A DNA stretch of 64,000 nt from Myxococcales bacterium. GTDB lineage: Bacteria > Myxococcota > Myxococcia > Myxococcales > JAKAPL01. Made by a program: the position numbers and the translations under genes. Where the stretch lies: assembly GCA_021783235.1 (NCBI GenBank), contig JAJXUD010000010.1, forward strand, positions 1 to 64,000, read 5' to 3'. Below are positions 597-31,700 of this stretch, one piece after another (position 1 is the first letter of the stretch; the number at the start of each line of letters is the position of its first letter). The notes beneath the pieces are model-generated. The model made no database searches. It was not told where the DNA came from and saw only the letters and a program-made list of their open reading frames with translations.

Positions 597-2021
<1,425 letters not shown>

Positions 2022-2052
2022 CCCGCGCCCTTGAAAGCCGCGCGTGACCCGC

Positions 2053-2058
2053 TATCCT
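2053..2058 (+). promoter_or_regulatory. -10 box TATCCT for the 2070 gene
   Basis: GCTATCCT ends 11 nt before the ATG at 2070, with no Shine-Dalgarno between. A transcript starting about 7 nt past the box would carry a leader of only a few bases. One member of the leaderless-type set seen across the window. Confidence 0.5.
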
Positions 2059-2069
2059 CCCGGGCCACG

Positions 2070-3605
2070 ATGAGGCCCGACGCGCGACGCTGGCTCCTGC
2101 CGCTCCTCGCCTTCCTCTACCTCTTTCCGTTCCCCTACTTCCCGGCGATCCGCAGCCCCAACGAGGGCTGCCGGCTCTACGAGGCCCGCGCCATCGTCGA
2201 CGACGGCACCTTCGCCGTCGACCGGCAGCTCGAGCGCTACGGCCCCATGGGCGATCTCTCGATCTTCCGGGGCCACTACTACTCCACCAAGGCGCCCGGC
2301 ATCTCGCTCGCCGGGGCCGGGGTCTACGCCGTCTTGAAGGCGTTCGCCGGCCAGAGGCCGGAGCGGGTCTCGAACGGCGTCTTGCTCTACTTCTTGCGGG
2401 CGCTCCTCTGCTCGGTCCCCACCCTGCTCCTCGCCTGGGCCCTGCGCCGGCGGCTCTGGGCCTGGACCGGCGACGGCCTCGCGGCCGACGCCATCGTCCT
2501 CGCCTACGGCCTCGGCAGCCTGGCCTACACCTACGGCATCCTCTACTTCAGCCACCAGGCCTGCGCGGTGCTCCTCTGCGGCTCGTTCCTCCTCGTCGAG
2601 CGGGCGAGGGAGGAGGACCGGCTCGCTCCCGCCGCCTGGGCCGGGCTCTGCGCCGGCGCCGCCGTGCTCGTCGAGTACACCGCCGCGCTCGCGGCGCTGC
2701 CGCTCGGGCTCTACGCGCTCTTCGCGCTCCGCCGGCGCATCCAGGGCACGCTCGCCTTCGGCCTCGCCTCGCTGCCGCCGCAGCTCGGGCTGCTCCTCTA
2801 CCACAAGGTCTGCTTCGGCGGCTTCTTCGACAACGGCTACAAGCACAACGTGAATCCGCTCTACCAGTCGTGGCACGAGCGCGGCTTCATGGGGATGAGC
2901 CTCCCCACCCTCCACGGTCTCGTCGGCAGCTTCCTCGACCCCGCCCGCGGGCTCTTCGTCTTCTCGCCGTTCCTCGTGCTCGGCCCCATCGGCCTCTTTC
3001 TCCTCGACCGCCGCCCCGAGCGGCGCGCCCCGACCCGCCTCCTCTGGACGATGCTCGGCCTCTACGCCCTCTTCACGGCCTCGATGGTCTACGAGTCCTG
3101 GGGCTGGACCGTCGGCCCGCGCCACCTGACCCCGCTCGCCGCCCTCCTCGTCCTACCCGCGGGCGTCGCGCTCGCCGAGGCCCGAAAGAGGGGGCCGCGC
3201 GCCCTCGGCCTCGCCGCGGGGCTCTGCCTCGCCTCGATCACCATCACCTCGCTCGCCACCGCGGTCTACCCCCACTTCCCCGAGCCGTTCACGAACGGCT
3301 TCTTCGAGCTCACCCTGCCGCTCCTCTTCGCGGGCTTCTTGCCGCCGAACGCGCTCAGCCTCCTCTTCGGCCTCGGCGCCTGGAGCTGGCTCCTCTACTT
3401 CGCGGCGCTCGCCCTGGCGCTCGGCTGGATCGGCTGGAGGCTCACGCCCGACGGCCAGTCGCGCGGCCTCGCCCTCGCGACCCTCTCCGCCTTCTTCCTC
3501 GTCCTCGGCGTCGCGGGCCGCGGCGACAGCCCCCAGAAGCAGTCGATGCTCCGCTTCGTCGAGCAGAGCTACCACGCGCCGGATCAGGTCGCGGGCCGGC
3601 AGTAG
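2070..3605 (+). CDS. Polytopic membrane protein, GT39-like
   Basis: Integral membrane protein of 511 residues with about ten hydrophobic segments. The N-terminal pattern (one TM, then a loop with SPNEGCRLYEARAIVDDGTF and GHYYSTKAPGISL) resembles GT-C glycosyltransferases and dolichyl-phosphate-mannose-type mannosyltransferases, where an early loop with acidic residues follows TM1. GT-C enzymes move sugars from polyprenyl-phosphate donors to protein or lipid on the outer face of the membrane; that function is inferred, not shown. The start is ATG 2070, directly after a TATCCT box; the frame is open 13 codons further up, across that promoter-like box. No sugar-transfer genes adjoin it. Confidence 0.6.
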   Translation: MRPDARRWLLPLLAFLYLFPFPYFPAIRSPNEGCRLYEARAIVDDGTFAVDRQLERYGPMGDLSIFRGHYYSTKAPGISLAGAGVYAVLKAFAGQRPERVSNGVLLYFLRALLCSVPTLLLAWALRRRLWAWTGDGLAADAIVLAYGLGSLAYTYGILYFSHQACAVLLCGSFLLVERAREEDRLAPAAWAGLCAGAAVLVEYTAALAALPLGLYALFALRRRIQGTLAFGLASLPPQLGLLLYHKVCFGGFFDNGYKHNVNPLYQSWHERGFMGMSLPTLHGLVGSFLDPARGLFVFSPFLVLGPIGLFLLDRRPERRAPTRLLWTMLGLYALFTASMVYESWGWTVGPRHLTPLAALLVLPAGVALAEARKRGPRALGLAAGLCLASITITSLATAVYPHFPEPFTNGFFELTLPLLFAGFLPPNALSLLFGLGAWSWLLYFAALALALGWIGWRLTPDGQSRGLALATLSAFFLVLGVAGRGDSPQKQSMLRFVEQSYHAPDQVAGRQ

Positions 3606-3647
3606 GGAAGCGAGCTCGTCGGGCCCCACCCCGTCCCGCGCCGGTGC

Positions 3648-3653
3648 TACATT
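3648..3653 (+). promoter_or_regulatory. -10 box TACATT for the 3664 gene
   Basis: GCTACATT ends 10 nt before the ATG at 3664; no ribosome site intervenes. Same arrangement as at 2053. Confidence 0.5.
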
Positions 3654-3663
3654 CGGCCCCCCG

Positions 3664-4530
3664 ATGCTCCCCGCCCGCGCCGCCCCAGCGCTGCTCGCCG
3701 CGACCCTCCTCGCCTCCCCAGCCCTCGCGGCGAGCGACTTCTCGACCGCCATCGAGGGGATCGAGCTGCGGCCCGAGGTCGGCACCGGCATCTACGGCTA
3801 CGAGGCCACGGGCAACGTCGGCGCCACCTCGATCGGCCTGCGCGACTTCGACCGGCGGCGGATCTTGCTCTGGGACGGCCGCGCCGACCTCACGCTCGGG
3901 GCGGTGGCGAACGAGCATCCGTTCGCCATGCTCTACGGCGCGCAGGCGACGGGCGAGGCCGAGGGCGGCCTGCGGCTCTCGCCGCAGAGGGCCCTCAGCG
4001 CCTACGCGAGCGTCGGGCTCGGGGCGAGCCTCTCGGCCGTCACCCAGTCGGGCGTGCCGTTCGACGGCGGCGCCACCGTCAACAGCCTCGACGGCCTCGG
4101 CGGCGTCCTCGGCAGCGCCGACGTGCGGCTCGGCTTCGGCGGCTCCTACCTGAAGGAGCGGCGCTCGCTCCTCTTCGAGCTCCAGCCGCTCGCCGAGATC
4201 GACTCCGCCGAGGCGAACCAGCCGGCCCTGGGCCTCTTCGGCGGCGCGCTCCACGCCCGCTACGACGTGCTCGATCGCTTCGTCGCCCTGGGCGATCTCT
4301 CGTACGCGCTCGCGCCGCCGCGCGGCGACGCCGCCCTGGGGATCGAGAGCTCGACCAGCCGCTGGATCCTCTCGGGCGAGGCGCTCCAGAGGTGGGGCCG
4401 CTTCTTCCTCGGGCTCGGCCTCTCGGTGAGCCGCGCCGAGACCGTCGTCGCCTACTCGGGCGGCACGAGCTTCCCCACCGTCGCGCCGATCCTCTCGCGC
4501 CTCTACCTGCTCGTGGGCTTCTGGCCATGA
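3664..4530 (+). CDS. Secreted or outer-membrane protein, unknown
   Basis: 288 residues with a clear Sec signal peptide (LLAATLLASPALAAS, cleavage expected after about residue 23). The mature part is rich in alternating hydrophobic/polar stretches with many Gly, Tyr and Phe residues and ends in a hydrophobic strand (LYLLVGFWP), consistent with a small outer-membrane beta barrel. I do not recognise the family. The stop overlaps the start of the next gene as ATGA (4527-4530), so the two are probably translated together and may act in the same compartment. Confidence 0.65.
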   Translation: MLPARAAPALLAATLLASPALAASDFSTAIEGIELRPEVGTGIYGYEATGNVGATSIGLRDFDRRRILLWDGRADLTLGAVANEHPFAMLYGAQATGEAEGGLRLSPQRALSAYASVGLGASLSAVTQSGVPFDGGATVNSLDGLGGVLGSADVRLGFGGSYLKERRSLLFELQPLAEIDSAEANQPALGLFGGALHARYDVLDRFVALGDLSYALAPPRGDAALGIESSTSRWILSGEALQRWGRFFLGLGLSVSRAETVVAYSGGTSFPTVAPILSRLYLLVGFWP

Positions 4531-5861
4531 ACCTTCCGCTCGTCCCGCTCGCCCTCGCCGCCGTGGCCCCCTTCACCTGCTCGCCGCTCTCGGCCGACTG
4601 GGGCTTCGGCGCCTCGGCCGGGATGAAGACCCCGCCCGACCCACCGCTCGCCTGCTCGCTCACGATGCCCCCGGACAGCGCGGCCTCGCAGCGGGCGGCC
4701 TGCGCCTTCGGCCAGGGCGACCACGCCGACGCGACGCTCGGCCTGCCGCCGGGCCTCGCCGCGCAGATCCCGATCCGCCACGTCATCGTGATGATGAAGG
4801 AGAACCGGAGCTTCGATCACCTCTTCGGCCGGCTGCACGACGAGGGGCAGCCGGCCACCGAGGCCGAGCCCTCGACGTACGTGAACCCCGACCTCGACGG
4901 CACGCTCGTCGCGCCGTTCCACGAGCCGACGACCTGCGTGCCGATCGACCCCGGCCACCAGGGCGCCTCGGTCGAGGCCTGCCTCGCGGGCGGCGCCATG
5001 ACCGGCTTCGTGCAGAACGCCGCCCGCACCACCGCGAGCGACGGCCACGCCGTGATGGGCAACTACGAGCAGACGGATCTGCCGTTCTACTTCTGGCTCG
5101 CCTCGAACTACGCCCTCGCCGACCGCCACTTCGCGCCGATGGCCTCGGGCACCTACGCGAACCGCAACTTCTTCCTCTTCGGCACCAACGCCGGCGTCTA
5201 CGACACCGGCATCAGCTACCCCGATCCGTCGACGCCCTCGATCCTCCAGCTCCTCGTCGCGCACGGCTACAGCTGGGCGGCCTACAGCGACAGCCAGCCG
5301 TTCAGCGGCACCCTCGGCTGGGCCCCGGGCGCCCCCGGCCTCCACCCGTTCCACGAGCTGCTCGACGCGCTCGATCAGGGCACGCTCCCGAACGTCGCCT
5401 TCGTCGACGGCGTCGAGAACGTCACCGACGACCACCCGCCCGCCGATCTTCAAGCCGGCGAGGCCTGGTCGCGGTCCATCTACGAGCACGCCGTCGGGAG
5501 CCCCGAGTGGTCGCGGCTCGTCCTCTTCTGGACCTACGACGAGGCGGGCGGCTTCGCCGACCACGTGCCGCCGCCCACCGGCTGCCGCGCCGTCCCCTCG
5601 AGCTCGCCCTTCACGCAGATGGGGCCGCGCGTGCCGCTCGTCGCCATCTCTCGCTGGGCGAAGCCGCACTACGTCTCGCACGTGGTCCACGACCACACGG
5701 CGCTGACCCGCTTCATCGAGGCGATCTTCGATCTGCCGGCGCTGACGGCGCGCGACGCCAACAGCGACGCCCTCTTCGACCTCTTCGACTTCTCCTGCGC
5801 GCAGCCCGCGACCCCCCCCGGCCCCGCGCCCGACGCCGGCACTGGCGGCTGCCCGGGATAG
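4527..5861 (+). CDS. Secreted phosphoesterase (phospholipase C/acid phosphatase family)
   Basis: 444 residues. An N-terminal hydrophobic signal is followed near residue 90 by HVIVMMKENRSFDHLFG, the diagnostic metal-binding block of the PF04185 phosphoesterase family (bacterial phospholipase C and AcpA-type acid phosphatases); N and S/D in ENRSFD are active-site residues. Later conserved blocks include FYFWLASNYALADRHF, WAAYSDS and FWTYDEAGGFADHVPPP, the last supplying D and H metal ligands. The likely substrates are phosphate esters or phospholipids outside the cytoplasm; which one cannot be told. The start ATG 4527 overlaps the upstream stop by ATGA. The C-terminus is Pro/Ala-rich and ends in GTGGCPG, possibly a flexible tail. 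Confidence 0.85.
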   Translation: MNLPLVPLALAAVAPFTCSPLSADWGFGASAGMKTPPDPPLACSLTMPPDSAASQRAACAFGQGDHADATLGLPPGLAAQIPIRHVIVMMKENRSFDHLFGRLHDEGQPATEAEPSTYVNPDLDGTLVAPFHEPTTCVPIDPGHQGASVEACLAGGAMTGFVQNAARTTASDGHAVMGNYEQTDLPFYFWLASNYALADRHFAPMASGTYANRNFFLFGTNAGVYDTGISYPDPSTPSILQLLVAHGYSWAAYSDSQPFSGTLGWAPGAPGLHPFHELLDALDQGTLPNVAFVDGVENVTDDHPPADLQAGEAWSRSIYEHAVGSPEWSRLVLFWTYDEAGGFADHVPPPTGCRAVPSSSPFTQMGPRVPLVAISRWAKPHYVSHVVHDHTALTRFIEAIFDLPALTARDANSDALFDLFDFSCAQPATPPGPAPDAGTGGCPG

Positions 5862-5933
5862 CCCGCGCCGGTCGAGCGCCGCCGCCCGTGGCTCGTGCCG
5901 CCGGAGCCGCTTCTCCTTCCGTCGACTTCTCGC

Positions 5934-5939
5934 TAGGCT
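5934..5939 (+). promoter_or_regulatory. -10 box TAGGCT for the 5952 gene
   Basis: GCTAGGCT ends 12 nt before ATG 5952. No Shine-Dalgarno is visible (the intervening bases are CCAGGGACCGCC). Confidence 0.5.
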
Positions 5940-5951
5940 CCAGGGACCGCC

Positions 5952-7280
5952 ATGTCCGGACCCAAGATCCTCGTCGTCGACGACAACACCGAGCTGCTCG
6001 CCCTCATGTCCCAGATGCTCGAGGAGGCCGGCTACACGCCGCTCCCCTTCTCGCGCGGCAAACCGGCCATCGAGAAGGCGCGGCAGGAGCGGCCCGCGCT
6101 CGCCATCATCGACGTGCTGCTCCCCGACGTGATGGGCCACGAGGTCGCCGCGGTCTGCCGCCGCGAACTCTCCATCCCGGTCATCTTCGTGACCGGCGTC
6201 TTCAAGGGCGGCAAGCACGCCCTCGAGGCCCGCTCGAAGTACGACGCGCTCGGCTACTTCGAGAAGCCGTTCCAGGCGCAGGAGCTGCTCGCGGCGGTCG
6301 CGAAGGTGGTGCAGCCTCCCAAGGCCGCGGCCCCCCCCGCCCCGCCGCCCGCCGCCGCGGCGGCCGAGATCGAGATCGACGTCGAGATCGAGGTGGAGGA
6401 CGAGGTCGCCGGCCCGCAGGACCCGATGGAGCTGACCGGCAAGATCAACCTGCGCGACCTCGGCGGCGTCTCGGCGACCCTCTCGGGAAACAAGCTCACC
6501 GCCGCCCCCGCGAAGGCGCCCGCGAAGCCCGCCACGGCGCCGGCGCCGGCGCCGAGCGCGAGGCCCGCGCCCAAGGCCGCGGGCGACGGCCCCTCGGGAG
6601 AGCTGCGGGACAACCTCCCGCAGCTCATCACCGCCTTCTACCAGGCGCAGAAGAGCGGCGAGCTCATCCTGACCCGCGGCAAGGTCCGCAAGGTCGTCTA
6701 CTTCGAGCGCGGCCAGCCCGTCTTCGCCCTCTCCAACGTCGCCTCCGACCGCTTCGGCCAGTTCCTCGTCCGCGTCGGCAAGATCACGGAGCCGCAGCTC
6801 GCCGAGGCGCTCGCCAAGGCGAAGCCCGAGAAGCGGCGCACGGGCGACGTCCTGCTCGAGCTCGGGCTGCTCAAGGAGACCGAGAAGCTCTACTACGTCG
6901 GCCAGCAGGTGAAGGCGATCATCTACAGCCTCTTCGGCTGGGAGGAGGGGCAGTACCAGATCGGCTTCAAGGACGAGGCGACCGCGCAGGCCATCAAGCT
7001 CGACCTGCCGCCCGCGACGCTCATCGTCCGCGGCGTCAAGAAGCTCTACCGGCCCGAGCGGTTGAGGCGGCTCGTCGGCGCCGAGGACAGCTTTCGCCCC
7101 TCGCAGGACCCGCCCTACCAGCTCACCGAGATCGGCCTCGAGCCGTGGGAGGCGCAGATGCTCACGCTCCTCGACGGCACGCGGAGCTCCGCCGAGATCG
7201 TGAACCGGGTGAAGCGGCCCGAGAACGTCGTCTTCGCGAGCATCGCCGCCCTCTCGGCGCTGCACTTCATCGAAAAGTAG
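5952..7280 (+). CDS. Response regulator with C-terminal DUF4388
   Basis: 442 residues. Residues 1-120 are a receiver domain: acidic pair in VVDDN, phospho-acceptor D in IIDVLLPDV (about residue 56), T in FVTG and K in EKPF. An Ala/Pro/Glu-rich linker follows (about 125-215). The C-terminal half (from SGELRDNLPQLITAFYQAQ) matches DUF4388/PATAN-type effector domains, in which a protein partner rather than DNA is the usual output. No HTH or enzymatic output is seen. No cognate kinase is adjacent, so it is an orphan. It is followed by a convergent gene and a terminator. Confidence 0.85.
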   Translation: MSGPKILVVDDNTELLALMSQMLEEAGYTPLPFSRGKPAIEKARQERPALAIIDVLLPDVMGHEVAAVCRRELSIPVIFVTGVFKGGKHALEARSKYDALGYFEKPFQAQELLAAVAKVVQPPKAAAPPAPPPAAAAAEIEIDVEIEVEDEVAGPQDPMELTGKINLRDLGGVSATLSGNKLTAAPAKAPAKPATAPAPAPSARPAPKAAGDGPSGELRDNLPQLITAFYQAQKSGELILTRGKVRKVVYFERGQPVFALSNVASDRFGQFLVRVGKITEPQLAEALAKAKPEKRRTGDVLLELGLLKETEKLYYVGQQVKAIIYSLFGWEEGQYQIGFKDEATAQAIKLDLPPATLIVRGVKKLYRPERLRRLVGAEDSFRPSQDPPYQLTEIGLEPWEAQMLTLLDGTRSSAEIVNRVKRPENVVFASIAALSALHFIEK

Positions 7281-7315
7281 GGGGAGAAGTAGGGGGGAGG
7301 GTCCGCCGCCCCCAC

Positions 7316-7347
7316 AAAAAAAGAGGGACCCCACCAGGGGTCCCTCT
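7316..7347 (-). terminator. Intrinsic terminator, minus strand
   Basis: Perfect 11-bp stem (7322-7332 with 7337-7347, AGAGGGACCCC) with a 4-nt loop, followed on the minus strand by a run of seven T (7316-7322). It ends transcription of the kinase gene that stops at 7519, or of a separate small RNA between them. Confidence 0.85.
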
Positions 7348-7350
7348 CGT

Positions 7351-7373
7351 GCCGCCCTCGGGCGGGCGGCTTT
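7351..7373 (+). terminator. Possible plus-strand terminator
   Basis: Stem GCCGCCC/GGGCGGC (7351-7357 with 7364-7370) followed by TTT. The U tract is short, so termination of the response-regulator transcript here is only likely. The stem at 7322-7347 could also serve the plus strand. Confidence 0.45.
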
Positions 7374-7518
7374 GGGAACATTCGACTTCGTCAGTCTGTC
7401 AGGCGCGCGCGCGGAGGCGCGCGTGCCAGCGCAGCGTCGAATTGGGTCGTCGCTCCGGCACCTCCTGCGAGGGTTTGAAGCGCTACCACCCCTTCAGATA
7501 ATCACGCCCAGAGCGCTG
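7374..7518. other. Structured spacer between convergent genes
   Basis: No gene is supported. It holds nested inverted repeats: ATTCGAC (7380-7386) with GTCGAAT (7435-7441) enclosing a GC-rich imperfect stem around GGCGCGCG, plus two AGCGCT copies. On the minus strand it runs straight into the T-rich terminator at 7316-7347, so it could be the 3' UTR of the kinase mRNA or a small RNA of about 190 nt. Confidence 0.4.
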
Positions 7519-9060
7519 TCAAGGCGAACGGGCGCGTCCCGCTTCGGGCGCCGCGGCGCCGGCGTCGGGGAGCGGCCCCCACGGCCCGTTCGGGTCCAGC
7601 TCGTCGGGGGTCGTGAGGAGCAGCGGCGAGTCCGAGCGCTGCGGCGCCGCCTCGGTGTAGCGAACCGTGTGGAAGGACGGCTGCGGCCTCGGGCTCCCGG
7701 GCTCGGGCACCGTGAAGGGCCACTCCTTCCAGTGGCTGCCGCCCGGATACGACTGGATGAGGAGGTACTGGTCGTCCGGCAGCAGCGCGACCCGGAAGCG
7801 CTGCCCCAGCTTCGGCTCGTCGACGAACCAGAACGGCTGCTCCGAGCGCATGCTCGTCACCTCGAGCCGGCTCGCGGGCAGCGCGACGGCGAGCGTCAGG
7901 CTGCCGTACCCCTTGGGCGGCGGATCCTCGACGCCGATGGGAAACGCGATCCGTCGCCCCTTGCCGTCGAGCGCCGGCCCCGTCGCCGCCGCCGCGGCGG
8001 CGGGCGCCGCGGCGCCGCTCCAGCGCCAGGGCGGACGCGCCCCCCAGAAGACGCTGCCAAAGCCCGCGGCGCCGAAGGCGATCAGCCCGCCGATGGCGAG
8101 CCAGGCGAAGCGCCGCCTGCCGCGCGGGGGCCCCGCGAAGCCTCCCCCTCCGCCGGGAGGCGGGGGAGGGAGGGCGGAGAGAGGGCTCGCGAGCCCCTCC
8201 CAGCCGGCCCGCCCCACCGCCTTCGCGAGCAGCCCCGCCGCGTCCGTCGCCCCCACGAGCGCGGCGATCTCGACCAGCCGCTCCAGCGCCGGCGCGATCG
8301 TGGGGCGGGCCGCCGCCTCGCGCTGCGCCATCTCGCGGAGGAGCGCGACGAGCAGCGTCGCCCCGCGCCGCACCGAGGGCGGCAGCGCGATCGGCCAGTC
8401 CGGCAGCCGGGGCAGCGGCGCCTCGTCCCCGCTCGCGTCGCCGCCGCCGGGGAGGTCGCGCGCGAGCAAAAAGAGCCCCATCCGCCCGAGCGCGTAGACG
8501 TCCGCGGCGGGGCCGGGCGCGCCCCCCGCCCGCTGCTCGGGAGCCGCGTAGCCAGCCGTCCCCGCCTGGGTGAGAAGCTGGGCATCGACCAGGAAGGCGC
8601 GCCCCCCGCGATCGACCAGCACGTTCTCGGGCTTCAGATCGAGGTGGGCCCGGCCCGGCGGGAGCCGCCGCAGCCGCTGGGCGACCTGGAGCACGAGCGC
8701 CGCCACCTCGGCCGGCCCGAAGGCCGAATCGCGCCGGCAGAGCTCGCGGACGTTCGGACCGTCGACGTGAGGCATGAGGAGGAAGAGCCGCCGCCGCCCG
8801 GCCGGCGGCGCCCCGAGCGCCTCGCGGGCGGGGTCCGGCAGCTCGCTCTCCTCTCCGACGGCGAGGAACTCGAGGATCGCCGGATCGGGGTCGCCCGTGG
8901 CAAGTCCGCGAAGCTCCGAGAGGATCCGGGGAGCGTCGGCCTCCCGGACGTCGATGACCTTGAGCGCGAGCGGCCTCGGCGCCCCCCCTGCCCGGACGAG
9001 GAAGAGCGCCCCCTGCGCGCCGCGGGCGATGGGCGAGAGGAGCTCGATGTCGAGGGCCAT
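7519..9060 (-). CDS. Membrane-anchored Ser/Thr protein kinase
   Basis: 513 residues. Hanks-type kinase fold: glycine-rich loop RGAQGA (13-18), lysine in ALKV (K34), catalytic loop HLDLKPEN (D141, N146), and GYAAPEQ in place of the APE motif (172-176). The DFG triplet reads DAQ (D159 kept), so the metal-binding aspartate is present but the motif is degenerate. A Pro/Gly linker leads to one transmembrane helix (about 318-340) and an extracytoplasmic domain of about 170 residues that I do not recognise. The ATG at 9060 lies 9 nt after a TAGGCT box. It is downstream of, and on the same strand as, an FHA-domain regulator whose FHA module would read phosphothreonine, suggesting a signalling pair. 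It ends at a strong terminator. Confidence 0.8.
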   Translation of the reverse strand: MALDIELLSPIARGAQGALFLVRAGGAPRPLALKVIDVREADAPRILSELRGLATGDPDPAILEFLAVGEESELPDPAREALGAPPAGRRRLFLLMPHVDGPNVRELCRRDSAFGPAEVAALVLQVAQRLRRLPPGRAHLDLKPENVLVDRGGRAFLVDAQLLTQAGTAGYAAPEQRAGGAPGPAADVYALGRMGLFLLARDLPGGGDASGDEAPLPRLPDWPIALPPSVRRGATLLVALLREMAQREAAARPTIAPALERLVEIAALVGATDAAGLLAKAVGRAGWEGLASPLSALPPPPPGGGGGFAGPPRGRRRFAWLAIGGLIAFGAAGFGSVFWGARPPWRWSGAAAPAAAAAATGPALDGKGRRIAFPIGVEDPPPKGYGSLTLAVALPASRLEVTSMRSEQPFWFVDEPKLGQRFRVALLPDDQYLLIQSYPGGSHWKEWPFTVPEPGSPRPQPSFHTVRYTEAAPQRSDSPLLLTTPDELDPNGPWGPLPDAGAAAPEAGRARSP

Positions 9061-9069
9061 GCGCCCGCC

Positions 9070-9075
9070 AGCCTA
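9070..9075 (-). promoter_or_regulatory. -10 box TAGGCT for the kinase gene
   Basis: Minus-strand GCTAGGCT, 9 nt from the ATG at 9060, no ribosome site. The 21-bp repeat array begins 33 bp further upstream, in operator position. Confidence 0.5.
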
Positions 9076-9108
9076 GCGGATCTCCGAGCGTCATCAATGG
9101 ATTCGGCC

Positions 9109-9444
9109 GGACTCTCGCCGGAGGCGCCGGGACTCTCGACGAGAGTCGCGGGACTCTCATCGAGAGTCCCCGGACTCTCGCCGCGATCGCGCGGACTCTC
9201 ATCGAGAGTCCCGGGACTCTCGCCGCGATCGCGCGGACTCTCATCGAGAGTCCCGGGACTCTCGCCGCGATCGCGCGGACTCTCATCGAGAGTCCCGGGA
9301 CTCTCGCTGCGATCGCGCGGACTCTCACCGAGAGTCCCGGGACTCTCGCCGCGATCGCGCGGACTCTCACCGAGAGTCCCGGGACTCTCGCCGCGATCGG
9401 CCAGACTCTCATCGAGAGTCCCGGGACTCTCGTCGAAGGATCGC
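9109..9444. repeat. Sixteen 21-bp repeats headed by GGACTCTC
   Basis: GGACTCTC starts at 9109 and recurs every 21 bp up to 9424, sixteen times with no spacing error (the copy at 9403 has A as its first base). Units alternate: from 9151 on, odd units (9151, 9193, 9235, 9277, 9319, 9361, 9403) continue with ATC or ACC then GAGAGTC, giving a perfect stem with a 3-nt loop. Even units continue with GCCGCGATCGCG or close variants. The real period is therefore 42 bp. GAGAGTCCCGGGACTCTC across unit borders is an 18-bp palindrome. The array lies between the stop of the FHA regulator (9467) and the kinase promoter, both minus strand. 21 bp is two helical turns, so all boxes face the same side. The three frames read as heptapeptide repeats, but no start, ribosome site or domain supports coding. 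Confidence 0.95.
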
Positions 9445-9466
9445 CCGCAGACGGCGAGATCGCCCG

Positions 9467-11161
9467 TCAGCTCGCCTCGGCCCCGTCGTCGTCCGGCGCG
9501 GCCGTCGAGCCCCCCTTCGTCGGGAGGAGGCCATACCGCTGAGCGCGCCGGTAGAAGGTCGTCACCGAGCGGTAGCCCAGCTCGCGCGCCGCCCGCTTCC
9601 ACCTGCCGCCCGCCCGAGCGAGCCCCTCGGCCATCAGCTCCCGCTCGATCGCCTCGAGTCTCGCCGGCACGTCGTCGAGCCCCCACGCCTTCTTCTTCGG
9701 CGCCGCCGCCTGCCCCGGCGCCTCCAGGATCTGGCGCACCGTGCTCGCCTCGATCTCGGCCCCCTCCGTCTCGATCGCCGCGAGCTCGAGCACCCGCTCG
9801 AGCTGCCGCACGTTGCCCGGCCAGTCGAACGTCTTCAGCGTCGCCTCCGCCGCCGTCGAGAGGGTCGGCTTCGACCTCGCGTCGCGCAGCGAGAGGAAGC
9901 GGGCCGCGATGAGCGGAATGTCCGAGAGCCGCTCTCGCAGAGGCGGCACCACGAGCAGCTTGCCGCCGATGCGATAGAAGAGATCCTGGCGGAACTTCCG
10001 CTCCTCCACGAGCTCATCCAGCCTCTTCCAGCTCGCGAAGAGCGGGCGGAAGTCCACCTCGAGGTACTTCGTGCCCCCCTGCCGGCGAAAGGCCTTCTCC
10101 TGCATCAGGCGCAGGAGCTTCGCCTGCAGCTCGAGCGGCAGATCCCCGATCTCGTCGAAGAAGAGCGTCCCCCGGTGCGCCCGCTCCACGAGCCCCTCGT
10201 GGGCGCTCTTCGCGTCGGTGTAGGCCCCCTCTTCGTTGCCGAAGAGATCCCGCTCCATCAGCGTGGGCACCAGCGTGGTGCAGTCCACCGTCACGAGCGG
10301 CCGGCGCGGGTTGTAGTGGTGGGCGAGCGCCTTCGCCACGAGCTCCTTGCCCGTCCCGCTCTCCCCCGTGATGAGCACCGAGATCTTCGAGGGGCCGAGC
10401 TTCAGGATCTCCGCGCGCAGCTGCCGGATGGGCTCGCTGTCGCCGACGATCGCCCCGCCCTCGTCGTCGTCCGGCGGCAGCGCGTAGAGCTCGCGCTCCG
10501 ACCAGACGTCGATGCGCGGCACGTACGGGTTCTCCGTGAGCAGGATCACCGAGCCCGGCAATAGCCGCACCGCGCCGTCGCTCCCCGGGCTGCCGTGCAG
10601 CAGCTGCGAGCCGTGCCGCCCCAGGTTCACGAGGTAGTGGCCGTCGACCCGCTCCTCGATGACCGCGTGCTCCCGCGACACCGCCGGGTGGTCGACGTGA
10701 AGCGCGCAGCGCGGGTCGCGGCCGATCACCATCCCGCCCTTCACCTTGATCACCTTGCTCGCCCGGTCGCGCCGCAGCCTCAGGTACAAGCTCTCCTTCG
10801 GCGGCGGCGTCACCCCGTCCGATTCCTGCGTCGGCGCGAGCTCCTCCGGCGGCTCGCCCGCAAGGAACGACTGCCGGGCCGGCGAGTCGATGGCCACCAG
10901 CCGAAACTGCCCGACCCGGGCCCAGCGGCCGCAGCGCAGGCTGGTGCGAAAGGTCGCGCCGTCGTCCCCGACCAGCGCCGCCTCGCCCACCTCCGTGAGG
11001 ATCAGCCGGTCCTCCCCCGCCTCCAGCCGGCAGAGGAGATCCGGGCAGTCGCGCGGATGCAGGACGAGATCCGCCGCCGGCCCCGACCCCACGTGGTGCG
11101 TCCCCACGCCGAGGTCGAAGACGCGGATGGGAACGTCGTCCTGGGTGACGAGGAGCTTCAT
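9467..11161 (-). CDS. Tandem-FHA AAA+ regulator (enhancer-binding-protein type)
   Basis: 564 residues. Order: degenerate FHA-like domain (about 1-95), canonical FHA domain (about 125-210; VIGRDPRC, VSREHAVIE), AAA+ module (about 235-440; Walker A GESGTGKE 266-273, Walker B GTLFFDEIGD 331-340), Fis-type HTH at the C-terminus (RWKRAARELGYRSVTTFYRR). FHA domains bind phosphothreonine, so a Ser/Thr kinase such as the adjacent one probably controls it. Oddities: the sigma54-contact loop, normally GAFTGA, reads GAYTDA (312-317), and the sensor-I ATN triplet reads ASW, so standard sigma54 activation is uncertain. The start ATG 11161 is 7 nt after a TAGGTT box; the frame extends 106 codons upstream but without domain content. 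Confidence 0.85.
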   Translation of the reverse strand: MKLLVTQDDVPIRVFDLGVGTHHVGSGPAADLVLHPRDCPDLLCRLEAGEDRLILTEVGEAALVGDDGATFRTSLRCGRWARVGQFRLVAIDSPARQSFLAGEPPEELAPTQESDGVTPPPKESLYLRLRRDRASKVIKVKGGMVIGRDPRCALHVDHPAVSREHAVIEERVDGHYLVNLGRHGSQLLHGSPGSDGAVRLLPGSVILLTENPYVPRIDVWSERELYALPPDDDEGGAIVGDSEPIRQLRAEILKLGPSKISVLITGESGTGKELVAKALAHHYNPRRPLVTVDCTTLVPTLMERDLFGNEEGAYTDAKSAHEGLVERAHRGTLFFDEIGDLPLELQAKLLRLMQEKAFRRQGGTKYLEVDFRPLFASWKRLDELVEERKFRQDLFYRIGGKLLVVPPLRERLSDIPLIAARFLSLRDARSKPTLSTAAEATLKTFDWPGNVRQLERVLELAAIETEGAEIEASTVRQILEAPGQAAAPKKKAWGLDDVPARLEAIERELMAEGLARAGGRWKRAARELGYRSVTTFYRRAQRYGLLPTKGGSTAAPDDDGAEAS

Positions 11162-23704: not shown

Positions 23705-24154
23705 ATGCGAAAGTGGATCGTCAATCTGGCCGTCGTCTCGGCGCTCGGCTGCGCGCCCGTCGTCGTCGTCCCGGTCACGCCGCCCGAGGCAATGGAGCAG
23801 TGGGCCCAGCTCCATCCGGCCGGAGCGCAGGCGCTCGGCGTCTGGGTTCGCAACCACCCGGGGGCCGCGAGCTGGCTCTTCGACTGGGACGGCGCCCACT
23901 CCGAGGGGACCCACGAACTCATCAGCTGGGCCATCTACCACCCGGGAGCGGGGGTCCCGATCTTCGTCTCGACCCATCCCGGCTGGTCGGTCTTCGACCA
24001 GTTCGCGATGGCGCACCAGCCGGCGGTCTGGGCGTTCTTCATGTGGGCCCGCCAGTTCCCGGGGGACGCGCAGCGGCTCGCCGACCACCCGAGGGGTCTC
24101 TGGTGGGCAGGCCACCACCTCTACGCCGCCGACGCCCAGATGCTCGGACAGTGA
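23705..24154 (+). CDS. Lipoprotein with repeated HP/aromatic motif
   Basis: 149 residues. Short signal with lipobox SALGC (Cys16). The mature region repeats a pattern of His-Pro followed within a few residues by Trp or Phe: LHPAGAQALGVW, NHPGAASWLF, YHPGAGVPIF, THPGWSVF, HQPAVWAFF, DHPRGLWW, about one every 20 residues. No family recognised. GGGAG lies just before ATG 23705, and TAGACT (23669-23674) is a plausible -10. It ends 64 bp before boxC, but boxC has its own promoter-like box. Confidence 0.7.
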   Translation: MRKWIVNLAVVSALGCAPVVVVPVTPPEAMEQWAQLHPAGAQALGVWVRNHPGAASWLFDWDGAHSEGTHELISWAIYHPGAGVPIFVSTHPGWSVFDQFAMAHQPAVWAFFMWARQFPGDAQRLADHPRGLWWAGHHLYAADAQMLGQ

Positions 24155-24202
24155 CGGCGCCGTCCGGGCGGCCGGGGGGCTAGGCGGACCCGGGCCGAAT
24201 GC

Positions 24203-24208
24203 GATAAT
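24203..24208 (+). promoter_or_regulatory. -10 box GATAAT for boxC
   Basis: GATAAT ends 10 nt before ATG 24219 with no Shine-Dalgarno; the box is close to the full sigma70 consensus. Confidence 0.5.
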
Positions 24209-24218
24209 CAATGCGCCC

Positions 24219-25874
24219 ATGGCCGAAACGACGCCGCAGCCGCCCGTTCAGTTCGAGACCCACCCCGACTCTTACCGCCACTGGAGGCTCGCCTTCGACG
24301 GGCCGGTCGCTCGGCTCACGATGGCCGTCCGGGAGGACGGTGGGCTCCGGCCGGGCTACCAGCTCAAGCTGAACAGCTACGACCTCGGCGTGGACATCGA
24401 GCTGTGCGACGCGGTCCAGCGGATTCGCTTCGAGCACCCAGAGGTGCGCGCGGTGGTGCTGGACAGCGCGCTGCAGAAGATCTTCTGCGCCGGGGCCAAC
24501 ATCTTCATGCTGGCCTCGAGCGGCCACCCGTTCAAGGTCAACTTCTGCAAGTTCACGAACGAGACGCGACTCGCGATCGAGGACGCCTCGGCCCACTCCG
24601 GGATCAAGTGGATCGCGGCCCTCAACGGCACCTCGTCGGGTGGCGGCTACGAGCTCGCGCTCGCCTGCGACGAGATCCTGCTCGCGGACGACGGCAACGC
24701 CTCCGTGAGCCTTCCCGAGGTGGCGCTGCTCGGCGTCCTGCCGGGGACCGGCGGCCTCACCCGCGTCGTCGACAAGCGGCTGGTCCGGCGGGACATCGCG
24801 GACGTCTTCTGCGCCTTGCCCGAGGGCGTGCGCGGAAAGCGGGCGGTCGACTGGCGCCTCGTCGATCAGGCGATCCCGAAGAGCCGCTTCGATCAGGCCG
24901 TCCGCGAGCGGGCGCTCGAGCTCGCGAAGGGATCGGATCGCCCCGGCGGCCCCGGCGTCCGGCTCGCGCCGATCGCCCCGGAGGTGACGCCGACCGCGCG
25001 CCGCTACCGGCACGTGACCCTCGGGCTCGATCGCTCCCGCCGCCAGGCGACGCTCACGGTCCGCGGCCCGACCGGCCCGCAGCCGAAGACCCCGGCGCAG
25101 TTCCTCGAGGCGGGCGGCGATGCCTGGGCGCTCCGGGCCTTCCGCGAGCTCGACGACGCGCTCCTGCAGCTGCGGGTGAACGAGCTCGAGATCGGCACCG
25201 TCCTGCTCCACACGGAAGGGGATCCGCGGGCCGTCCTCGAGGCCGACGGAGCGGTCGCGGAGCTGCGCGGCCACTGGTTCGTCCGGGAGATCCTGGGCCA
25301 GATGCGGCGGACGTTGAAGCGGCTCGATCTGACCGCGCGGACCCTCTACGCGGCCATCGAACCGGGGAGCTGCTTTGCGGGCTCGCTCTTCGAGATCGCG
25401 CTTTCGGCCGACCGGAGCTACATGCTGGACGACCCCGCCCGGGCGACGGCGGTCCAGCTGTCGGCGCTCTCGGCGGGGCTCCTGCCGATGTCGAACGGCC
25501 TGTCGCGGCTCCAGTCCCGCTTCCTCCACGATCCCCCGAGGGCCGGCCGGCTCCTCGAGCGACGCGGCCCCTTCTCGGCGGGCGAGGCGCTCGAGGCGGG
25601 GCTCGTCACCTTTGCCCCCGACGGCATCGACTGGGACGACGAGTTGCGGCTGGCCCTCGAGGAGCGCGAGGCGCTCTCGCCCGACGCGCTGACGGGCATG
25701 GAGGCAAACCTCCGCTTCGCTGGGCCGGAGACGATGGAGAGCAAGATCTTCGGCCGGCTCTCGGCGTGGCAGAACTGGATCTTCCAGCGACCCAACGCCG
25801 TGGGCGAGAAGGGGGCCCTCTCCCTCTATGGGCAGAAGGGGCAGCGGCCCGAATTCGATTGGCGGCGCACCTAG
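24219..25874 (+). CDS. boxC: Benzoyl-CoA-dihydrodiol lyase (2,3-epoxybenzoyl-CoA dihydrolase)
   Basis: 551 residues, the BoxC length. Double enoyl-CoA-hydratase (crotonase) fold: LKLNSYDLGVDIELCDAV, VVLDSALQKIFCAGANIFML, KWIAALNGTSSGGGYELALACDEILLADD and LPGTGGLTRVVDKR in the first half, then GSCFAGSLFEIALSADRSYM in the second. BoxC opens 2,3-epoxybenzoyl-CoA hydrolytically to 3,4-dehydroadipyl-CoA semialdehyde plus formate in aerobic benzoate degradation. boxB follows after 9 bp, as in known box operons. The benzoate-CoA ligase, boxA and the aldehyde dehydrogenase are not in this window. Confidence 0.93.
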   Translation: MAETTPQPPVQFETHPDSYRHWRLAFDGPVARLTMAVREDGGLRPGYQLKLNSYDLGVDIELCDAVQRIRFEHPEVRAVVLDSALQKIFCAGANIFMLASSGHPFKVNFCKFTNETRLAIEDASAHSGIKWIAALNGTSSGGGYELALACDEILLADDGNASVSLPEVALLGVLPGTGGLTRVVDKRLVRRDIADVFCALPEGVRGKRAVDWRLVDQAIPKSRFDQAVRERALELAKGSDRPGGPGVRLAPIAPEVTPTARRYRHVTLGLDRSRRQATLTVRGPTGPQPKTPAQFLEAGGDAWALRAFRELDDALLQLRVNELEIGTVLLHTEGDPRAVLEADGAVAELRGHWFVREILGQMRRTLKRLDLTARTLYAAIEPGSCFAGSLFEIALSADRSYMLDDPARATAVQLSALSAGLLPMSNGLSRLQSRFLHDPPRAGRLLERRGPFSAGEALEAGLVTFAPDGIDWDDELRLALEEREALSPDALTGMEANLRFAGPETMESKIFGRLSAWQNWIFQRPNAVGEKGALSLYGQKGQRPEFDWRRT

Positions 25875-27299: not shown

Positions 27300-27823
27300 G
27301 GGGTCCGGCCAGCCGGCTGGCAGTACCGATCGAGGAGCAGGCCGAGCCGAGGCACGGCCTGCTCGACGTTCTTCTTGCCGGTCGGGCGGAGCTTCTCGTA
27401 CGCCTTGCGCAGGGACGAGTTCTTCGTCTGTTGGGCGCGCGCGTCGGTGATGGCGAGCAGCGCCTCGGAGACCTCGCCCGCCCGCGCCTGTAGGTAGGCC
27501 GAGAACGGGCCCGCTCTGCCTGGCGCCCAGGCGTCGTGGAACGGGTCGAGCTTCTGGGCGAACTCCGGCAAGAGCGACTCGAGCACCTCGCGGACGATGC
27601 CGCTCTTGACGGCCTTCACCACCGCGTAGGCGCCCTTGATGGCCATGCCCGCGAGGCCGCCCTTCGAGGCGACCTCCTCGTCGACGAGCTTCTCGCAGTC
27701 GGTGACGACCTGGGGGCGGACGGCGGGGTCGAGGAGCTTCTCGGAGAGGGCGGGCACGGGCCGGAAGATGCCGCCGGAGGCCACTGGCGTCAACCCGAGA
27801 GTTTGGCAGAATGTCGCGCGCAT
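27296..27823 (-). CDS. Small conserved protein, DUF6918-like
   Basis: 175 residues. The core ALSEKLLDPAVRPQVVTDCE, KLVDEEVASKGGLAGMAIKGAY, AVVKAVKSGIVREVLESLLPEFAQKLDPFHDA resembles the DUF6918 family known to me mainly from actinobacteria; assignment is from memory and unsure. It is helical, with no signal or membrane segment. The first about 25 residues may not be real: the annotated ATG sits head-to-head with the next gene's start, and a later start near ALSEKLL would fit the family better. Convergent with boxB, whose stop it touches. Confidence 0.6.
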
Positions 27824-28685
27824 GATCTCCGTCGCCTATCTCCTCATGGTGGCCTCGATGAACGCCGTTCCACTTCCCAAGGCGGCGCGAGCCGAGGTCG
27901 AGCGCTGGCGCGCCGAGCAGGACGCCGAGATGCGCGGCCCCGCTAGCCCGCTCGCCCGCGAGGCGCCCCGGGAGCTCGCGCCGGGCCACAACGTCCTCGG
28001 CAGCGGCCCCGCCGACACCCTCCGGTTCGACGCGCCGGGCGTCCCGGCGAGCGTCCTCGATCTCGTCTGGGAGGGGCAGGCGCTCCTCGCCGAGCCGCTC
28101 CTCCCGATGGTCCTCAAGAACGGCGACCCGCTGGTCGCGGGTCCCGTCGGACCGGGCGACCGGTTGCAGGTAGGGCCCCTCGCGCTCTGGCTCCAGCCCG
28201 GCGGTCGCGGCCCCGCGCTCGCGGTGAGCGACGAGTCCCGGCCCGAGCGGATCGGCTACCACGGCTTGCGCTACCTGCCGCTCGACGGCCAGTACCGGGT
28301 GGCCGCGACCTTCGAGCCGGCCGAGGCGGGGAGGACCCTGACGCTCGAGACGAGCACCGGCGGCCGGCGCGTCCTACCGCTCCGGGGGCTCCTCCGCTTC
28401 GAGCTCGAGGGTCGGGCGCTCTCCTTGGACGCGTTCTCCCTGGGCGAGCGGCCCGACGACTACTTCGTGATCTTCAAGGATGCGACCAACGGCCGCGAGA
28501 GCTACGGCCCCGGCCGCTTCGTCTGGGTTCCCGGCGCCGTCGGCGGGAAGACCGTCATCGACTTCAACCTGGCCTGGAACCCGCTCTGCGCCTACTCGCA
28601 CGCCTTCAACTGCCCGCTCGCGCCGCCCGAAAACCGGCTGCCAATTCGCATTCCGGTCGGTGAGGCGACCTACACGGACGACTGA
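27822..28685 (+). CDS. DUF1684 protein
   Basis: 287 residues. The sequence follows the DUF1684 pattern: VERWRAEQDAEMRGPASPL near the start, then a central beta region, FVIFKDATNGRESYGPGRFV and the C-terminal signature DFNLAWNPLCAYSHAFNCPL with PPENRLPIRIPVGE. Function of the family is not established. The hydrophobic first 20 residues (ISVAYLLMVASMNAVPLP) could be a signal, so later in-frame ATGs at 27846 and 27858 are also possible starts. A CAGAAT box ends 9 nt before ATG 27822. Divergent from the 27296 gene with the two starts overlapping by 2 nt. Confidence 0.8.
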   Translation: MISVAYLLMVASMNAVPLPKAARAEVERWRAEQDAEMRGPASPLAREAPRELAPGHNVLGSGPADTLRFDAPGVPASVLDLVWEGQALLAEPLLPMVLKNGDPLVAGPVGPGDRLQVGPLALWLQPGGRGPALAVSDESRPERIGYHGLRYLPLDGQYRVAATFEPAEAGRTLTLETSTGGRRVLPLRGLLRFELEGRALSLDAFSLGERPDDYFVIFKDATNGRESYGPGRFVWVPGAVGGKTVIDFNLAWNPLCAYSHAFNCPLAPPENRLPIRIPVGEATYTDD

Positions 28686-28755
28686 CCATCGGCAGCGCGC
28701 CCTCATGCCGTCTCCGCGGGGGCTCGGGCGCGACGGGCGCCGCGCCCGTCCCGAC

Positions 28756-31700
28756 TCACTGGCCCTGCTCGAGAAACCCGATCTCGTCCGTGATGACGCT
28801 CTTGTCCTCGGCATCGGGCTTGAGCTGCAGGTACTTCTTGAAGTGCTCGAGGGCGAGCTTCGTCTGGCCGCTCCCCTTGTAGTAGTAGCCGAGGTACTTG
28901 TGCGGCAGCGGGTTCTTCGGCTCCGCCGCGACGGCCTTGCCGTAGTAGCTCGCCGCCTCTTTGCCCTTGCCCTCCTCCTCGAGGGCGCGCCCGATGAGGT
29001 AGTAGGCCTGCACGAGCGACCGATCGCGCTCGAGCGCCCCCTGGTAGCTCGCGACCGCCTTGCGGAAGTCCTTGTCCTTCGCCTCGAGATCGCCGACGGC
29101 GAGCGCGAGCGCGACCCGCTTGTCGTCGAGCGCCATGGCCTTCTGGTAGCTCTGGATGGCATTGGCGTCGTCGCCCTGCTGCGCCTCCACGGAGGCGAGC
29201 TGCTGGAGCGCGTCCGGAAAGGCGGGGCGGAGCGCGATCGCCTGGGCGAGCGACTTGTGCGCCTCGTCGTAGAGGCCGAGGGCCGCCTCTCCCTGCCCGC
29301 GCACGAACCAGTAGTCGGGGTTCTTGGGGCCGAACTCGACGGCCGTCTTCGCCTCTTGGAGCGCCCGGTTGTCGTCCCCGCGGACCAGCAGCGCCTTGGC
29401 GAGGTAGTAATGGGCGTCCGAGACCTTGCTCGAGAGCGCGATCGCGGTGCCGAGGGTGGTCACCGCGGCGTCCACCTGCCGCTCGGCGAGCTCCACGGCC
29501 CCGAGCGAGACGGCCGGCAGCGGGTCGCGTGGCTCGGCCTCCATCGCGGCCTCCAGGGCTTTGTGAGCCTCCGGTAGCTTGCCCTCCTTCCAGAGGAGGT
29601 CACCGAGCGCGAACTCGAGCCCCGCCTGCCGCGGGTCGAGCTTCTCCGCGGCGAGCAGCTCCCGCTCGCCCCCCGCGAGGTCGCCCTGGCCGGCGAGCGC
29701 CCGGCCCAGTCCGAAGCGCGCCTCGGGGTTCTGGCCGTCGATCGCGAGCGCCCGCTCGAACTCGGCCCGTGCCCCCGCGAGATCCCCTGCGGCCAAAAGG
29801 TAGTCGCCGAGTCCGGCGTGCGCGCGGGCGCTCTTCGGAGCCTTCTGCACCGCCGCCTCGAGCTCGACCTTGGCCTTGGCGAGATCGCCGCGGGAGAGCA
29901 GCAGGCGCCCCAGCGCGACGTGCGCCTCCTCGTAGTTCGGGCCGGCGCGAAGCGCGACGAGGAGGTGGCTCTCGGCCTCTTCGGGCTTTCCCAAGGCGAG
30001 CGCCGCGAGGCCCTCGAGCGTCAAGAGGCGGGGATCGGAGGGGTTCGCTCCGAGCGCCGCCGTGAGGACGCGCGTCGCGTCGAGGTAGTGGCCGACGGCG
30101 AGCTGGACGCGGGCGAGCGCATCCGCGATGTCGGGATCGCGCGGGTGGTCCTCCGAGGCCCGAAGCAGGAGGGGGAGCGCCTCCGCCGGACGGTGTTGAT
30201 TCGCGAGGAATCGGCCGTAGGACGCCTCGACCGTGCCGCTCTTGGGATCGAGCGACAGGGCCTTCTTGTACTCGGCCTCCGCCGCCGCGGCCCGATGGTG
30301 AAATGCATCGTCCTCGCCGAGCAGGGCGAAGACGCGAGCCCGCTCGGAGGGTGAGAGGGTGTTCTGGCCCGAGGACAGCGCCCGCAGGTCCGCGTCGACC
30401 CCGTCGCCGCTCCCGTCGAGCTGGGCCTGCAGGAAGTCGGCCTCGAGGCGGGAGCTCTCGTGCTCGGGGTCGGCCGCGCTGGCCTTCTGAAATTCGGCGA
30501 GGGCGTCCTTGATGTCACCCGCCCGCACCGCGAGCCGACCCAGCGCGTCGAGCGCCTTCGCGCTCTTCGGGTCGACGGCGAGCAGCCGCCGCAGGGTCGC
30601 GGTCGCCTTGCGCGGGTCGTGCCTCGCCTGCCCTTCGGCGAGCAGGCTGAGGGCCTCTTTGTCCTTCGGTTCCTTGATGAGCAGTGCCTCGAGCGCCGGT
30701 AGCGCCTCGTCGGGGTTGCCCATCGAGAAGGCGGCTCCGGCGCTCGCACGCACGACGTCCGGATCCCGCCGTCCGACGATCTCCAGCCGATCCAGCTCGT
30801 TCTGCTCTCCGGCCGCACGCTCCGTCGCCTCGCCGTACTTTCGCTCCAGGTAGAAGATCGCCTGCGCCTCGACCGCCTTCGGATCGATGGCCCTGGGCGC
30901 GAGCTTCTCCGCCGAGCGGGCCAGCGAGAGCGCTCGCTGGTATTCGGCGAAGTTGTCCCGCGAGATGGCCGCTCGGGCGTCAGCCACGAGCTTCGCCGCC
31001 GGCGTCCCCTTGTGGGTGTGCGGCGGGCCGAGGATCTTGTTGATGCCGAAGTAGCCGTACACGGTGGTCCCGAGCGAGAGCCCGACACCGACGACGAGGA
31101 GCAGCGCGACGCCCACCGCGATGAAGGGGGCGCGCCGTCGAAGCGCCGCCACGTGGTCGACCGATTCGACGATGGCCGAGTTGGCCATGCGGCCGCCGTA
31201 GAGCTCCTGCAGCCGCCGCAGCGTCTCCTGCTTGTCGCCGTCGTCCGCGGCCGAGGCGTCCGCCCCGATGTGGAAGGCGTCCGCCGGAGCAGCCATCAGA
31301 TCCTCGATGGACTTCGCGAACGTGGGGAGGGTCGAGAGGATCTGCCACTTCTCGCCGTCGCTCGAGGCGTCCTCGTTTCCGAGGAGCTGTCCCTCGCGAA
31401 GCATCCGGACGACGGTCTCCTCGTCGAAGGGGCCGAGCGTCTTCCCGCTCTTGCGGCGGATCTGGTAGCGCTTGGCCCGCGCGCCCGAGGGCGCGCCCGC
31501 CGCTCCCCCTGCCGGGGCGCTCTGGTCGATGAAGTCGAGGACCTCGAGACCGTCCTCGGCGGTCGCCGGGGCCGCCGGCGAACTCGCGAGATCGAGGTCC
31601 GCCTCGAGCGAGTCGGCCGCTCCCGCGGCGGGCGCCGTGGCGGGCATCGGAGCGTCGAAATCGAACTCGAGCGCGTCCGGTGGCGCCGGGGTCGAGGCGC

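Follow-up and report, generated by a model that had tools for sequence, protein, structure and literature searches.

The sixteen-box array described here, which lies in a 64,000-nucleotide stretch of DNA (the window), very probably belongs to a class of intergenic tandem arrays with a 21-bp period that recurs across genomes of one GTDB family of Myxococcales-like bacteria. In the best overall reading, to which we give about an even chance, these arrays are fast-turning intergenic satellites that have in common a helical geometry (units of exactly 21 bp, frequently dyad-symmetric) and not a sequence.

The window array and its relatives

A regulator gene ends on one side of the array and a kinase-like gene starts on the other, and the locus is made up as follows.

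7519..9060, minus strand: kinase-like gene (PF00069 by Pfam), the downstream neighbour, outside the array; its counterparts in homologous pairs overlap the regulator gene or come shortly after it
9085..9108, no strand: left flank, base-for-base identical in the second copy on contig C6 and the left end of the duplicated block (comparison of copies)
9109..9432, no strand: tandem array of 16 GGACTCTC boxes at 21 bp with a higher-order period of 42 bp, very probably non-coding, dyad-symmetric (box positions, Tandem Repeats Finder, codon and dyad tests)
9433..9466, no strand: array right end, then the spacer that reaches the stop codon of the regulator gene; the end CTCTCGTCGA..GATCGCC is also found in the C6 copy and in contig C92 of G002, a genome of a sister genus
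9467..11161, minus strand: regulator gene with FHA, sigma54-interaction and Fis-type HTH (HTH_8) domains (Pfam), the upstream neighbour; the duplication on C6 includes its final ~570 bp together with the array

The boxes, GGACTCTC, begin at 9109, 9130 and so on to 9424, spaced at exactly 21 bp with no slip, and the one at 9403 (AGACTCTC) is the sole departure among the sixteen. A palindromic unit, GGACTCTCA(T/C)CGAGAGTCCCG, alternates with a second unit, GGACTCTCGC(C/T)GCGATCGCGC, and Tandem Repeats Finder places 9108-9432 far above the other arrays of the window, with a period of 42, 7.7 copies and a 93% match. Box positions and Tandem Repeats Finder thus confirm the original prediction of sixteen slip-free boxes at 21 bp in alternating units with a true period of 42 bp. 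The exact 8-mer occurs 23 times in the window on both strands, compared with 6.9 +/- 2.6 times in shuffles, and 22 of these occurrences fall within the array at 9109-9432, the dyad symmetry of which reaches a p value of about 0.001-0.004. A CRISPR array is made of identical repeats and unique spacers; the units of the window array are contiguous and alternate, with no unique spacers between them.

A second copy with 12 boxes was found at C6:243893, where it adjoins other genes than the window copy. It is part of a duplicated block of ~955 bp, which begins 24 bp upstream of where the kinase gene starts and contains the array and, as a truncated piece, the final ~570 bp of the regulator gene, without the kinase gene. 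Of the 574 positions of the regulator part, 11 differ between the copies, all of them in the first 100 and last 74 bases, and each array has homogenised its core on its own, to GCCGCGATCGCGC in the window copy (contig C45) and to GATGCGATCGCGC in C6. Like minisatellites or VNTRs, the two copies thus consist of head-to-tail units in differing number (16 and 12 boxes). An open reading frame beside the C6 copy (L006 8858-9544) was taken by eye for a Y1 transposase, an assignment that neither Pfam nor the family search supported.

The window box array was found at these two places only in its genome. In 85,462 GTDB species genomes, the pattern of the hairpin plus the next box matched 5 stretches, one of which, DAIDIT010000092 (contig C92 of G002), is kin of the window array: it has a period of 21, the same palindrome (GACTCTCGTCGAGAGTC), an alternate unit with GCGATCGC and a nearly identical right end. 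The same pattern matched 5 stretches in viral contigs. A box search in 115 class members and 95 phylum members, two overlapping sets, gave 3 stray matches outside the genome of the window and none at 21-bp spacing.

A family-wide class with a 21-bp period

Three genomes of one GTDB family were sampled over ~1.36 Mb, namely that of the window (G000; about 17% of the genome), G001 (12%) and G002 of the sister genus (3%); many of the sampled stretches begin at contig ends, which are repeat-rich, and a few were picked because of a match. Autocorrelation was measured in intergenic DNA, defined as the remainder after a codon-usage-trained gene finder. With both window-sequence arrays excluded, the top five lags in G000 were 21, 42, 84, 63 and 105. 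Regions of at least 160 bp were then scored for periods of 10-44 at z>6, a procedure that selects arrays by their 21-bp autocorrelation and thus favours in-phase examples, and 24 of 261 intergenic regions of the family carried period-21 arrays (12 of 125 in G000, 8 of 112 in G001 and 4 of 24 in G002), the sole other scoring period in these regions being 42, the double of 21. This count includes an array on C31 (L108) with coding-like codon use (0.42) that may be part of a gene and was also kept in the kinship, slip and main dyad tests, while being left out of the tests for covariation and three-base variation. The match in L168 is doubtful, as 5834-6700 of that stretch resembles a collagen-type gene that the gene finder overlooked, and some long arrays of 21-bp multiples were called as open reading frames (L109, L111, L112, L117, L179 and L180). 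The twelve arrays of G000 come from a sample of 0.79 Mb out of 4.6 Mb, and stretches of G001 drawn after the hypothesis had been set gave 6 further arrays and no competing period.

Elsewhere in the order, 135 regions (27 loci, 10 genomes) gave no match at period 21, one at 20 and one at 42, and the one period-21 match among 69 regions of other class and phylum members (20 loci, 20 genomes) is a heptamer repeat and not a real array. Tandem Repeats Finder assigns a period of 21, 42, 63, 85 or 126 to 51 of 78 non-coding arrays of the family, compared with 2 of 20 in the order. A unit of 42 bp with two 21-bp halves, present three times in another family of the order (L124 1-126; G004 C17), may indicate that the class extends beyond the family. 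The idea that the 21-bp, two-turn phase matters is supported, and it reaches far beyond the window locus for which it had been put forward. In the literature searched, mostly outside subscription journals, we found no published description of such a class.

Arrays of the class comprise about 6 to 35 units, a higher-order unit being built from 1, 2, 3 or ~4 base units, and many have a fresh core and decayed edges that are still in phase. Their unit sequences are mostly unrelated, with few clear kinships among 325 pairs (two parts of C17; G2C127 and G2C7; C45 and G2C92; more weakly, C45 and C83). They occupy tandem, divergent and convergent spacers without preference, next to genes for glutamyl-tRNA synthetase, dihydrouridine synthase, an OPT transporter, MutS2, deoxynucleoside kinase, glycosidases and response regulators, and next to a Cas12b locus. 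At all four sites examined, sister genera have the orthologous gene without the array, which points to fast turnover.

Several further features were seen in the sampled stretches. Higher-order units of 85 bp (4 x 21 + 1) form arrays at contig ends (L110 5746-6331, L078 1-484, L104 1-1498 and L077 1-250), and a CTGATCGRYCG core is present in L110 and L078 as well as in a 42-bp array at L109 8127-8860; the 85-bp-unit arrays and the L109 array are probably one large, assembly-breaking array family. An array of CCTCTSAGGGGCCCTCG units at L177 16401-16631 (G001 C107) probably explains the 11 matches of the backwards control pattern in G001. The Cas12b locus is of CRISPR type V-B (L075 1868-7885; G000 C17) and has a 21-bp array upstream; Cas12b (C2c1; 1868-5314 by Pfam) is followed by a Cas4-Cas1 fusion-like open reading frame (5341-7116) and a Cas2-like one (7120-7398), and the end of the contig carries two 36-nt repeats 73 bp apart. 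At L064 10940-11071, Rfam identifies a cobalamin riboswitch (RF00174, 59 bits).

Symmetry, phase and the origin of the period

Dyad symmetry was tested within automatic array limits against a null of permuted columns (the 21 columns of the unit profile), with a set of intergenic regions as control. Fifteen of the 24 arrays are dyad-symmetric at p<0.05, where about 1 is expected, and 11 at p<0.01, compared with 10 of 139 controls at p<0.05; a significant dyad is missing in about a third of the arrays. Slips, counted with a cyclic profile HMM, number 9 in 10,018 bp of arrays against 2,923 differences from the consensus, which are not to be equated with mutation events, as amplification copies substitutions and slips alike. 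Five of the nine fall within one array, where they seem to be copies of a single slip in an amplified 85-bp unit. The phase is not absolute, since single-base slips occur. When four 1-bp indels were planted in eleven arrays, the majority of which are strongly diverged, the HMM recovered 3.5-5.2 slips on average, and the arrays C83, G2C20 and C34 are slip-free even though their mismatch amounts to 39%, 45% and 51%, respectively.

That units diverged by 40-50% keep their phase suggests that the spacing is under selection: homologous exchange cannot register units so diverged and neutral decay adds indels, which makes selection on the spacing more likely. We put the probability that selection acts on helical geometry a little short of even. 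Given that coding is excluded (see below), that the autocorrelation scan shows no other multiple of three as an intergenic period and that 21 is the smallest integer number of base pairs equal to whole helical turns, a one-faced lattice is favoured, whereas the absence of a 10.5-bp harmonic in the W/S composition of the arrays counts against simple bend phasing. The arrays would grow and shrink by 1, 2, 3 or about 4 units, would be homogenised locally and sometimes carried along by segmental duplications, and would be replaced between genera. As a dyad repeat of 21 bp would set a symmetry axis every 10.5 bp, or one helical turn, with all axes on the same face, the selected property might most readily be a one-faced platform for a putative symmetric, weakly sequence-specific DNA-binding protein lattice, the proposed role of which would be in nucleoid or chromatin architecture and not that of a gene-specific operator. 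The most specific form of this proposal is tentative, and we consider it possible: in one bacterial family, intergenic arrays that are free to vary in sequence and fixed at two turns, with a dyad per turn, would be the preferred platform of a putative dedicated chromatin-like protein filament, a bacterial analogue of phased satellite chromatin.

The alternative that survives best, and one to which we assign an appreciable if lesser probability, is a family-specific process that copies in fixed steps of 21 bp, by slippage, template switching or a putative enzyme acting on two-turn DNA loops, so that the arrays would be neutral satellites that keep their phase. It would fit the restriction to the family, the unrelated unit sequences, the higher-order units made from 1, 2, 3 or ~4 base units, the fresh cores with decayed edges, the presence and absence of arrays at orthologous sites and the indifference to the type and orientation of genes; in addition, the inverted units of some arrays (L076) fit template switching, which could create dyads too. 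Fast turnover is also expected of a neutral satellite and counts against selection. What speaks against fixed-step copying is that units too diverged for homologous exchange stay phased and almost slip-free, while neutral decay should have introduced indels.

Operator, RNA and coding readings, and known repeat systems

The window array had been predicted to be an operator switch for the adjoining kinase gene, which we reject as in all likelihood mistaken. Its position between the regulator and kinase genes, the strict phase and the Fis-type HTH of the regulator would all suit a mechanism in which the FHA/sigma54 regulator binds the array cooperatively on one face and controls the kinase gene, yet such control is very unlikely in view of the homologous gene pairs. 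In a paralogous pair of the same genome (G000 C26) the two genes overlap by ATGA, in the sister genus they are 8 bp apart (G002 C127) or have almost no gap (G002 C11), and all three pairs are array-free, so that arrays do not always flank FHA regulator/kinase pairs in relatives, as the prediction would have it; in a fourth pair (G002 C20) other genes intervene. The window array is hence better seen as an insertion or expansion within a normally compact pair. Moreover, the C6 copy lies beside unrelated genes and lacks the kinase gene, and arrays with this period but different sequences flank genes of all types and orientations (gltX, mutS2, the OPT transporter, dihydrouridine synthase and others), convergent spacers included. 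A search of 8900-9700 found neither a sigma70-like promoter nor a terminator, which leaves the proposed -10 box of the kinase gene unsupported.

Two observations concern the gene pairs themselves. The kinase-like protein of the window (7519-9060) has kept HLDLKPEN and has VDAQ at the expected position of DFG, and could be a kinase that is inactive or atypical. In the fourth pair (L058; G002 C20), the space between the regulator (24103-25752) and kinase (27791-29128) genes holds an AAA/OLD-type ATPase-like open reading frame and another one, which may be an inserted defence module.

A role of the arrays as chains of RNA hairpins, acting in mRNA stability, in termination or as non-coding RNA, is very improbable. 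The window array folds far better than its shuffles (z = -9.7), but good folding is expected of a palindromic repeat by construction. The left and right arms of the units covary in only 2 of 23 arrays, each of which has alternating units, which argues that the symmetry belongs to the consensus and not to individual hairpins. Rfam gave no gathering-level match over any array in the eight array-bearing loci searched, all matches in the window region (mainly to microRNA models) being below the gathering score; the terminator search was negative, and arrays are present whether the neighbouring genes are divergent, tandem or convergent. As about a third of the arrays have no significant dyad either, the predicted hairpin chain does not hold as a general explanation.

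The arrays are very probably non-coding, as had been anticipated for the window array. Translated heptapeptide repeats would account for a multiple of three (21 bp being 7 codons) and for the open frame in several arrays, and are nevertheless highly improbable. Codon log-odds per codon lie around zero and are mostly <=0.16, compared with a coding mean of 0.37 and a 5th percentile of 0.16, the exceptions being C31, which is clear, and C27, which is short and borderline. In addition, a three-base pattern of variation reached p<0.05 in 1 of 29 arrays (median p 0.53), some arrays, such as C17, have stops in all six frames, and the autocorrelation scan found no other multiple of three as an intergenic period of the family.

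Unit lengths of VNTRs differ within a genome. Tandem arrangement, change in copy number and local homogenisation are common to minisatellites, VNTRs and the present arrays, which differ in that one base period dominates the non-coding arrays of the family. The parS heptads of pSM19035 are 7 bp long. Iteron and heptad arrays with filament-forming proteins, such as pSM19035 parS (PMC9499535), are also regularly phased short sites that can nucleate a protein lattice, but in them one sequence serves one protein at few loci, whereas the present class has many sequences at many loci and a putative binder. Borg repeats of Methanoperedens extrachromosomal elements (PMC9879509) are perfect repeats of variable unit length, about half of them within ORFs, with 14-38% of the intergenic unit lengths divisible by three. 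They resemble our arrays in that many sequence-unrelated arrays of independent origin and rapid turnover are spread across a genome; the present arrays differ in being fixed at 21 bp, degenerate, often dyad-symmetric and intergenic.

REP or PU palindromes and BIMEs are likewise intergenic palindromic units, at times in tandem, for which architectural roles have been proposed, and REPs are described as sequence families in which a single sequence is present many times, in many cases with GTAG or CGTC at the ends, alongside a cognate RAYT (PMC2817692, PMC3733652). Spread of such palindromes by a RAYT (Y1) transposase is extremely improbable here, despite the tandem palindromic intergenic units, because no one palindrome is dispersed among the arrays (units are mostly unrelated, and the box array of the window is confined to its two places) and RAYT genes are not enriched, with one Y1_Tnp match per family member compared with 0-5 in other members of the order.

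Bacterial repeat families are normally recognised by their sequence, and a class whose members have only period and symmetry in common escapes similarity searches; the intergenic period scan used here is applicable to all genomes. If the spacing is selected, this lineage keeps dozens of phased DNA platforms and must possess a reader of two-turn geometry, and if the period stems from copying, the lineage has an unusual process of fixed-step duplication.
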